A stretch of 64,000 nucleotides of DNA from Enchytraeus crypticus (taxonomy: Eukaryota > Annelida > Clitellata > Enchytraeida > Enchytraeidae), in the NCBI GenBank assembly GCA_905160935.1, contig CAJHZI010000659.1, positions 242,001-306,000 of the forward strand, given 5' to 3'. Below the pieces are notes generated by a model that saw only the letters and a list, made by a program, of their open reading frames with translations, searched no databases and was not told where the DNA came from. Below, in pieces: positions 354-50,800 of this stretch. The first letter of the stretch is position 1; each line of letters opens with the position of its first letter. Both the position numbers and the translations under genes were made by a program.

Positions 354-1874
354 TTTCCAGACTTCTCCTGGCTGTAGAGTTGTTCTTGCAGCTGTCACTG
401 CTGCTGTTGCTGTCACCGCTGCTGCTGCTTGAAATCTTCTCACTGATGGGACTGCTACTGCTGCTGGTGCTGTTGCTACAGCAGCTGAGACAGCTGCTGC
501 AGCTGTTACAGCAGCTGAGACAGCTGCTACTGCTGCTGGTGCAGCTGTTACAGCAGCTGAGACAGCCGCTACAGCTGCTGCCACTTCCTCCCACGTAGCT
601 GTAAACACTACACTGCCACAAGCAAGCACAGCTATAGTTAAGATGGATGCAGCAGTTGCAGCACATTGTGAAATTACAGTTGAATTTACAGCTGCTGGTC
701 GTTTTGCTGTCATGGCATTTGCTACTGTTGCCAAGGCTGTTTCCATGGCAATCACTGCTGTTGCCATAGCATTCACTACCATTGCCAAGGCATACCATAC
801 ACCCACAGGAAGATTTGCCGCTGCTGCTATCAGCGCTTCCGTTGCCATAGCAACAAAACCTCATATACATGCAGCCGGTGTTAGATATTTCGCTGCAGTA
901 GCCACCAATGCAGCAGTGACAACTGTCACTACTGCTGGCATTGAAGCTATCACCTCCACCATTGTTATCTGTGCCGCTATCACTAGGTTCATAACTTGAA
1001 TCGCTACCATTGTGACAACAGCAGCAGCTCTTCAACCAGTGCACTTCCAAACCAGTGCAATTTTCCTCGTTCAACAATCGATAGTTTTGAGACGAAAAGG
1101 CGGTCGCGTTAGCTGAAAAATTCATAATAATGTCTGATATCTCGGAATGATTATAAGATCCATTCAGAGTGCCGCAGCTGTCGCAGCAGCAACAGCTAGC
1201 AATGCAGCAACCACAGTTGTTCTCACAGCAGTTGCAGCAGCTAGAACATTCCAGAACAATCCAATCGGTGGAAGGGCTTGGATCAGACAGATCGGCCTTT
1301 CCTCTCTCCCACCTCACTAGTCTCAATCTAAACTTATACCTCGCTGCATCAGCCGGCAGCAGCAATAAATACTCGTATCTATGCAGTGTTCTGCCGTCTT
1401 CTTCAAACACCGCCTCCACCTGCCAATCGTCACTAGATGGCTCCGCCTCTATCGAAGCCAGCGATGAAGCAGAGAATGACTCAACATTGATTGACATATC
1501 CTGGTGTGCAGGAATCAACGGGCTGTGACCTGATAATGCCTCAGCGGAAGTTATTTGCTGATCATGCAAAATCTCTAGCGGAACATTCGAAGGCAGACGA
1601 TCGGAGACCTGAATACTTTCCCGAGACTCCGAGTTAACCCTAACATCGTTCCCGATCCATTTCGGCCGCCCTACTGTCTCCACCCGATTCAATTCGACTG
1701 GCCAATCAGAGGAAGGGTACGGCGGCTTCAGCTGCACAAGTTTCTCCAGCCGGTAAGCCGCAATGGGTCCATCACCTGAGCCGGTTTCAGCACAGACCCA
1801 GCGGGGCCAGGTGAGAGTGAGAGAAGAATGAGAGTGCTGCATGACATGTGGTGCAGAGTTCATCAGTGGAAGAG
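354..1874 (-). CDS. exon 3: FN3-like domain plus Cys/Ser-rich tail
   Basis: The acceptor AG is at 1876-1875, preceded by (GATT)n. About 215 codons encode the FN3-like domain and end V-L-E-C-S-S-C. Two phase-1 donors are possible: GTGAGA at 1226 (exon 1227-1874) or GTGAGG at 353 (exon 354-1874). The frame stays open for the whole 1.5 kb, and the extra 290 residues are Cys/Ser/Asn/Gly-rich with many N-x-S/T sites. An Ala-rich frame is also open over part of this stretch, so the extension is uncertain while the FN3 part is solid. Confidence 0.5.
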
Positions 1875-47800: not shown

Positions 47801-50800
47801 GGAGCCATTGACGATGTCGGAATGATATATGACCGCGGATGAGTATATACGGGGTTCAAATCCTGGGTTCGACCGTCACTGACATCGCTTTCGAGTGAGG
47901 AAACTGACGTTAACAACGGCTTTACAACTGTTTTTTCAGTGATTTCATACACAGCAAGGTCCGCGGATCAGTACGTGCAGGGGTTCAAATTCTGTGCTCG
48001 CCCATCACTGATATCGCTTTCGAGATATGAACCAGACGTTAACAACGACTCTACAACTGTTTTTACAGAGATTTCATACACGGCAAGGTCGAGCTCTGCA
48101 ATGAGCAGGTCGCTGTACACTCCCTTAGGTGGCTTCTTGTGCAGACGCTTCACCGTCACTGCCTGCCTGTTCCACAGCATGCTGTCAAATCAATCATTTA
48201 ATCAATTAACCCTTTAACCTATCACTTAATTCAATTTACCTATTAATCAATAAATCTATCAATTAATTAATTAATCCATTAATCCATCAATCAATTAATA
48301 CATCAAACAATAAATCAATCAACCAGATTACATCCAAAATAATAGATATAAATTACTATCGGTGAGTTATTATCGATATATAACAATACGATACTGTCAC
48401 TGACAGTCATCATCAGTCCCTTGCGTTCTGAAGAGAATATAGCGTGGCAACATTCCTCCATTCTTATCTGTCTTTAGCAACTCCCGCAGCATCTTCCCAT
48501 GAAATGTTCAAAGAAATGTTACAATACATTATATTACATATAAATTACATAATATATACATATTATGTTCATATGTGTACATTGTATGAATGATTAATGG
48601 ATTGATTAACTGATTGGCTGATCGGCAAATTGATAGACAAACCTCTCCATGACCATAAAGGAGGCGTTGTTGTAGGTGGGGCCCTGTATGTCGTGCTTCA
48701 GGCTCGTCTCGCACACGACTGGAACGTTGCCGATAGTCATCAGAGAGCTGCTGTTTAATCCCGCGAACATCTGAAAAACACGACAATCAGTTAAAACCTT
48801 AAACAAGCATCTGTATTTCCTGACTCAGTTGTTACCGCATTTATGTTAAAATCATTAATTCCGTTAATTCTCTTTATTAGACAACACATCACCATTAGTC
48901 AATCCGTCACAAATAAATAGCTTTATTCATTTCCTTTAGTAACACCACGCCTATTGGCTGGAGCCAGTAGCGACGACGGCAAGATATTTAACAGCAGGTC
49001 AGTATGTGCGGGGTTCAAATCCTGAACTCGCCCGTCACTGATATCGCTTTCAAGGGAGGAAACTGACGTTAGCATTAGCTTTACTAGCATCTTTTATATA
49101 TCAATCAGTCATCCATCAAAAACCAATAATTAAGTATCTTCCTTTAGTAACACATACAACATATTGTGTTACAGAGCCAGTTTAGTTAATGTTTACGTAG
49201 ATTTTCTATTTCCTCTTTTCTTCAAGATTTTTGGTTATCCTTGCCTTTTAGTAATACGCAATAAACCATCTGACTAATCGACAAATATTTTATGTGAATA
49301 AATGCAAAATGCATCAAAAATTAACAATTCATAAAAAAACTGATATATCAAACAAGCAATCCATAACATAAATTCATCAAGAGTTCAATACAGCAGATGG
49401 AGGGAGTATAAATAATGTCTGCAATGATGTAAGCTGCATCATTTGAAAAATAGGGAGGAAGTGTAAAAGCCTTTGACTGAGCCGGTGGCTTGTTGGCAAG
49501 TTGTTCTGCAGTAGATCAGCAGGTGTAGGATTCAAATCCTGTGCTCTCATCGTCAATGACATGCCATTGAGATGGAAACTGACGCTAAACTTGGCTTTGT
49601 GACCTATTTAGTACTAGCACATTAATTAATTAAAGTGATTAAGTTGAATTAAAGTGATTAAATTGATAACTATGAATTATTTTATTAAATTAAAGTGAAT
49701 TAATTAAAGTGAGTAGCAACGTCAGAAAGGGCATTCGGTTGGTGAGCGCCTAGGCTCCAGTAATTGCTACAAAAATTTAAACAAATGGAAGACTTAAATA
49801 GGACTGAGAGTATTTCATACAGTCTATTTGTATCCCGACCCCAGTTAAACAGGGATTCAAGGGAGCATGATGATGATAAATTAAAGTGAGTAGCACATAA
49901 CAAACCATTCCATATCCATAATGACCTATGGGCACAGCGTTGGTCATAGACGAGTCGGAAATCTTTGTTATGCCGTCCAGTACCTTAGACCTTAACACAA
50001 TTCACACCGTGATATGCAACAAAACGATTTGCTAGTACGAAATTATTATCAAATTAATTACATTAATTAATTAATTAATGTAATTAATTAATTAATGTAA
50101 TTAATTAATACATAGGTAAAACGTCTACTGTATCGGCATAATCTGGTACTACAATATGTATTAGTAGCTATTTAACAAGAATTTAATAATTATTATAAAT
50201 ATAAACAATTTATTGTTTAATTTATAAATAAATTATTATCAATAGCTTAATTTATTATCTATAATTTATAATTTTTAAAGGTTAACCCCTTCTAATGGTA
50301 TATATTATTGTTAAGGTAATTTTAATGCACAATTCATCATCAATAGATAATTTACTAGCAAGATACAGTCATTTATTAATAGATAACTGCTAACTACATT
50401 ATTCATTATTAACTTTGTTATTCATTAGTATATTATGTTACTTAATATGTGATTATCTACTTAATTATCTACTTAATTATCTACTTAATTATCTACTTAA
50501 TTATCTACTTAATTAACTATTTACTTCTCTCTCTCTTATTTATCTCTCTGCAGCACTGATTTTATATTCAAATCAATTGAGTGAATCGAATTGTAGCGAA
50601 ACAATTGAGAGACATCCTAGACAGCATTCTTATACCAATCTACTCAAACCATTTTTGATCACCGGACTGGCTTTCGTTTAGGACCTTACTTCTTCTCAGC
50701 ACATTTCTTTTGCAGATTGGTCTGGGATAAATTGATCTGTAGTGATGAGTGCTGTTGGGTACGTCCTTGACATCATCTCTGGATGAGGAAACAGACGTTA

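Follow-up and report, generated by a model that had tools for sequence, protein, structure and literature searches.

Border-spanning local duplications and a sense-strand (TTGA)n repeat at 3' splice sites in an animal genome

Exon ends in this genome have been copied, together with the adjoining splice junction, into the introns beside them. Borders were copied at about the background rate of local duplication, no exon interior was copied in a sample of myosin genes, and acceptors close to a (TTGA)n microsatellite were copied more often than other acceptors. The copies are probably equivalent to the mirages of amphioxus, local duplications that run across exon borders, and would result from breakpoints that fall by chance together with selection against duplications that break conserved exon interiors. 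In our view, the most suitable reading is that the border copies arise as largely neutral side effects of local duplication and then pass through selection.

Genes and border copies in the window

We analyzed a 64,000-nucleotide stretch of DNA (the window) and sampled the assembly to which it belongs (524 Mb, 802 contigs). Three genes of the window, GNPDA, EGF/FN3, and one resembling TEX14, are on the minus strand, and a fourth, resembling STARD3, is on the plus strand; exon borders were placed from homology, splice dinucleotides, and reading frame. The name EGF/FN3 is the label given in an earlier, sequence-only reading of this DNA, and the long open frame of that gene matched no family in Pfam. 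GNPDA (8682..15143, minus strand, five coding exons) has an intact frame of 276 amino acids when its splice sites are taken from the copies closest to each exon body. Among the best 120 of 7999 hits to this protein, the best-scoring named relatives are lophotrochozoan (Tegillarca, 70%, a longer protein; Helobdella, 84%; Ridgeia, 82%; Mytilus, 81%), whereas mammalian proteins match at 82-85% and unnamed metagenome-type entries at 86%. Branchiostoma lanceolatum matches at 81% in the same set, which places the host at some distance from this amphioxus. Four candidate loci were examined for a GNPDA paralogue, but human GNPDA1 gave no tblastn match there, and they presumably represent other genes of this Pfam family.

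The TEX14-like gene (29705..52842, minus strand; the upper limit is approximate, the start of the first exon not being fixed) has eight 3'-terminal exons that form a single open frame ending at a stop. Exons 6 and 7 of this gene could not be joined in a common frame, which leaves the border between them uncertain. A 31-bp minisatellite of 15 units (29246-29710) starts at the TEX14 stop codon and extends downstream, and the coding end of the gene thus also lies at an array edge. The window further contains minus-strand retrotransposon reading frames with an endonuclease domain (23697-25340, adjoined by a further frame at 22414-23757) and a reverse transcriptase domain (39021-40745), as well as a match resembling a tRNA gene (25914-25985) that scores above the Rfam threshold. 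A dispersed SINE-like repeat of ~130 bp is present in at least 12 copies in both orientations (for example, 17265-17398, 32022-32157, 45881-46001, and 48954-49084).

The sequence-only reading had named 11 exon borders as copied into flanking introns, up to six times each and with intact AG or GT. We searched the sense strand within 3 kb of each of these borders and counted a copy if it spanned the junction with at least 12 exon bases. Such copies were found at 10 of the 11 borders, with a maximum of five and a minimum of one per border. They were 66-97% identical to the border, with E-values from 1.7e-5 to 6.8e-43 except for one weak match at the 5' border of GNPDA exon 4. Most copies did retain the splice dinucleotide (17 of 20 direct copies, the weak match counted); the others were one GNPDA exon 2 copy with GG and both TEX14 exon 7 copies with AT. 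The 3' border of TEX14 exon 6 had no junction-spanning copy within 3 kb on the sense strand, and the 129-bp duplication beside it (47833..48090, minus strand) is mainly the dispersed SINE-like repeat.

All direct copies lie on the minus strand. The 5' end of EGF/FN3 exon 3 (acceptor 1874) has one copy (1944..2023) with 53 exon nt and AG, 91% identical and flanked by (TTGA)n. In GNPDA, the 3' end of exon 1 (donor 15020) is copied once (14827..14875; 33 exon nt and GT, 88%), and a 26-bp minisatellite (14875-14983) adjoins the copy. The 5' end of exon 2 (acceptor 14165) forms an array of three copies (14132..14435; 93-97%), the unit of which is (TTG)n followed by AG and 34 exon nt. Exon 4 is copied at both ends. 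Its 5' copy (10690..10796; acceptor 10640; 77 exon nt, 93%) has (TTGA)n at the junction and a decoy AG that, if used, reads into a stop; the second, weak match at this border is 69% identical (E 0.002). Its 3' copy (10031..10090; donor 10456) is single, with 32 exon nt and GT at 90% identity.

In TEX14, the 3' end of exon 7 (donor 46787) has two copies with 68-70 exon nt and (GT)n (46533..46749; 88-90%). Two copies of the 5' end of exon 8 (45485..45665; acceptor 45123), with 21 and 107 exon nt at 90-96% identity, adjoin (TTGA)n tracts, and an additional exon-like copy lies at 45168-45258. Five copies of the 3' end of exon 10 (41101..41869; donor 41935; 35-38 exon nt, 66-86%) form a series that is split by a SINE-like repeat at 41594-41699. 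The 5' end of exon 14 (acceptor 35544) has two direct copies with 45 exon nt (35692..35948; 88-90%), which sit in 192-bp units bearing (TTGA)n. An inverted copy of the same acceptor (35559..35598, plus strand; 97.5%) lies directly upstream of the real one, with which it is predicted to fold into a long, near-perfect hairpin (-55.3 kcal/mol) that would cover the functional 3' splice site. The 5' end of the last exon (acceptor 29805), exon 19 in our numbering and taken as exon 18 of the sequence-only reading, has one copy (29941..30006; 36 exon nt, 83%).

Border copying against the local background

Local duplication was defined by BLAST as a match of at least 70% identity no more than 1.5 kb away, with the low-complexity filter on. 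By this definition, local duplications cover 23.1% of the window; they take in 23.5% of the bases outside exons and 942 of the 5040 bases in annotated exons. Ten of the 44 borders of EGF/FN3, GNPDA, and TEX14 (STARD3 borders were left out) fell in local duplications, compared with 9.3 ± 3.4 expected under circular shift (P = 0.43); these were 6 of 23 acceptors and 4 of 21 donors. Exon interiors, taken as positions at least 25 nt from a border, were copied at 6 of 48 positions in conserved exons (null 10.2 ± 6.6) and at 23 of 144 in the C-terminal exons of TEX14 (null 28.5 ± 20.8), neither depletion being significant against shifted positions. In the conserved set, the copied positions lie in exon 4 of GNPDA and exons 7 and 8 of TEX14, three exons into which border copies extend far. 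The copied C-terminal interiors belong to TEX14 exons 13, 14, and 18, with tandem repeats in multiples of three. Among the repeats listed, periods in annotated TEX14 exons run from 12 to 87 and are all multiples of 3, and intron array periods include 26, 35, 46, 56, and 76. In-exon TEX14 repeats with such periods lie at 30248-30977, 35011-35365, and 36580-36716.

Local duplication ranged from 4.8% to 44.9% across six 10-kb slices of the window, one of which was not rich, and was 5.9% in the right-hand flank, which is not rich either. The window exceeds most of the myosin regions described below (median 7.0%, maximum 32%), and its richness in local duplication helped to make it conspicuous.

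To sample the genome outside the window, we used a myosin-head family search, which gave at least 81 exon matches (best candidates), and took 26 regions of 10 kb. The tblastn queries were the 42 of 81 exon matches within the first 20 regions. The 26 regions contained 113 exon blocks. After removal of blocks lying within 130 bases of the edge of a region, and of borders at which no site was acceptable, 221 borders (111 acceptors and 110 donors) were scored, with splice sites assigned by rule. Because the regions, all from one gene family, include neighbouring paralogues, the borders are not all independent. One donor (called at 4514 in L014) is probably ~25 bases off, although even so the probable true border falls within its copies. 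The same border is copied in two myosin genes that lie ~40 kb apart on one contig (acceptors 6128 in L016 and 7933 in L018, sense coordinates).

Twelve of the 221 myosin borders were locally copied (acceptors 8/111, donors 4/110), on many contigs, which bears out the earlier claim that unrelated genes are affected. The expectation was 17.0 ± 4.0 by circular shift or 19.0 from the regional rate, and the shortfall relative to introns was not significant (P = 0.13 for so few). Intron flanks were copied at 558 of 6375 positions. In contrast, none of 549 interior 20-mers was copied, compared with 45.7 ± 12.7 expected under circular shift. Myosin borders act like introns, perhaps slightly depleted, and conserved exon interiors are spared. 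The comparison of interiors with borders, on which the sequence-only reading had staked its claim, therefore came out clearly in the myosin genes, where interiors were not copied as often as borders, and less clearly in the window. Since window interiors showed no significant depletion, the selection step of our explanation rests on the myosin sample.

The (TTGA)n repeat at acceptors

A microsatellite had been claimed beside most copies, and this association held for acceptors. Those with TTGATTGA within 100 nt were copied in 9 of 25 cases, compared with 5 of 109 for those without it (Fisher 7.5e-5). Donors showed no significant link (2/23 versus 6/108). Among intron pseudo-borders in the myosin regions, 66 of 369 with TTGATTGA and 1748 of 25631 without it were copied; in the window, the expected order was absent (38/163 with TTGATTGA versus 587/2059 without).

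These frequently copied acceptors raise the alternative that some process targets exon-intron borders and copies them preferentially, such as breaks that arise at splice sites while genes are transcribed, R-loops, or microsatellites tied to splice sites. The concentration of (TTGA)n itself at acceptors, given below, points the same way, and for both reasons acceptors bearing the repeat are indirect hotspots. However, permutation tests put overall border copying no higher than that of introns in either the window or the myosin sample, and the special affinity for borders that the sequence alone had suggested was not upheld. We regard border targeting as unlikely; compared with introns and exon interiors, the striking pile-up of border copies needs no such process.

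The repeat follows the direction of the genes. Plus-strand ratios of TTGATTGA to its reverse complement were 1:23 in EGF/FN3, 0:26 in GNPDA, and 7:135 in TEX14, all minus-strand genes, and 4:0 in the plus-strand STARD3 gene; two stretches without annotated genes gave 0:1 and 0:0. In the myosin genes, the octamer TTGATTGA occurred 138 times in sense and 34 times in antisense orientation. The tetranucleotide class reached 15.0 per kb within ~60 nt upstream of myosin acceptors, compared with 1.27 elsewhere in the regions, while the antisense class stood at 0.75 and 0.56 per kb, respectively. Thus, (TTGA)n is mainly on the sense strand and is concentrated ~12-fold just upstream of 3' splice sites.

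We take TTGAT to match the general branch-point motif, and (TTGA)n at acceptors may accordingly have a branch-point role. Acceptors without the repeat gave counts of 16 versus 17 for TTGAT (ratio 1.8), 8 versus 2 for TTGAC (ratio 6.2), and 1 versus 13 for CTGAC, the compared regions differing in length; the evidence for a branch-point motif in repeat-free acceptors is suggestive only. A more speculative idea, which we hold as a minority possibility, is that (TTGA)n forms part of the 3' splice signal in this lineage, as branch-point-like TTGAY arrays that are kept on the sense strand close to acceptors and shed decoy acceptors with exon ends. Such arrays would keep shedding decoys because they are also prone to duplication. 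If true, this would tie splice-signal evolution to genome instability and supply raw material for new exons or introns.

Transcription-linked strand skew was rejected as the cause of the repeat's orientation. Sense-intron skews were 0.05 (T/A) and 0.035 (G/C), and strand skew alone seems too weak. Donor-side octamers were unbiased in 82 myosin introns (six with TTGATTGA, seven with TCAATCAA) but stood at 4 versus 0 in 21 window introns. Antisense runs near donors prompted a second reading, bridging of intron ends by complementary repeats, which was also rejected: donor-end TCAATCAA and acceptor-end TTGATTGA occurred together in only one of the 82 myosin introns and in none of the 21 window introns. 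One myosin intron (L030, 4911-7954, sense coordinates) does combine the two, with long (TCAA)n at the donor and (TTGA)n at the acceptor, an arrangement suggestive of pairing between the ends.

Origin of the copies and comparison with known systems

Under the explanation that we prefer, chance breakpoints filtered by selection, local duplication would be frequent in this genome, with units of tens to ~200 bp and breakpoints that could land anywhere, oftener beside microsatellites. A duplication running from an intron repeat to a few dozen exon bases would add a second exon border on the intron side. Such an event would survive because it leaves the body of the exon undamaged and the copy closest to it usable. 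Duplications that break a conserved exon interior would be purged, and selection of this kind may account for the missing exon interiors. The copies themselves may stem from replication slippage or template switching, and the inverted copy at 35559-35598 fits the latter. Decoys may be tolerated through exon definition, and (TTGA)n may persist at 3' splice sites through its likeness to a branch point.

A function for the copies, as alternative splice sites or in splicing regulation, is improbable. It would suit the retention of AG or GT in most direct copies and the predicted hairpin at the exon 14 acceptor, and human exon-intron boundary repeats can alter splicing and form new introns (PMC2812944). 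On the other hand, reading from the decoy acceptors reaches a stop in eight of nine tested, and the inner sites must therefore normally win; use of the remaining one, in GNPDA intron 1, would insert 60 codons without shifting the frame. In addition, mirages in amphioxus globin and Adh3 genes left regular splicing undisturbed (PMC3087553). An assembly artefact is very hard to credit: tandem repeats are prone to misassembly, and one aberrantly assembled mirage is on record in amphioxus (PMC3087553), but all 20 direct copies differ by 3-34% from the real border, many separate loci are affected, and several contigs exceed 1 megabase.

The closest known system is that of the amphioxus mirages. These are minisatellite-like tandem duplications across exon-intron boundaries at either exon end, described in Adh3, the globins BflGb6 and BflGb9, PGBD5, and TnC. 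The repeat unit measures 10-72 bp in Adh3 and 150-160 bp in the globins; many copies keep AG or GT, lengths vary, and it has been suggested that new introns could arise from the arrays (PMC3087553, PMC3902484). The copies described here likewise span the junction, affect both 5' and 3' exon boundaries, and mostly keep AG or GT. Whereas mirages were described gene by gene in cephalochordates, our data concern another animal and add the (TTGA)n association as well as rate controls. Amphioxus mirages are known to be unstable, in length and somatically; the present data come from one assembly.

In human segmental-duplication genes, a comparison of recent paralogues found variable internal tandem repeats, minisatellites at exon-intron boundaries, with 27 intron modifications after manual checks, some of which create new introns from cryptic sites (PMC2812944). 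Those repeats change gene structure, whereas here the frame is kept with the inner sites. Intron gain by tandem genomic duplication also involves local duplication of a segment that holds splice sites (PMC4974935, PMC3443670). The copies here lie inside existing introns, the inner sites give GNPDA a single frame, and no new intron was seen. For the repeat itself, the human CFTR variant c.744-33GATT(6) places a GATT/TTGA tract just upstream of an acceptor and, in a complex allele with another change, gave minor exon skipping in minigenes (PMC4449874); that is one human locus, compared with class-wide acceptor enrichment and border copies here.

Zebrafish has introns with complementary AC/GT repeats at both ends, which resemble the present introns in carrying simple repeats near splice sites. 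Unlike in those introns, complementary ends rarely co-occur here. Open-access literature searched with exact terms yielded no report of border-spanning copies in annelids, molluscs, or their kin, nor of the (TTGA)n class at acceptors. Border-spanning arrays were already known in amphioxus and human; the present analysis extends them to another animal lineage, and its controls and the (TTGA)n association are new. The sense-strand bias of (TTGA)n at acceptors is the part most worth pursuing; it offers a connection, open to testing, between microsatellites, branch points, and the emergence of decoy splice sites.
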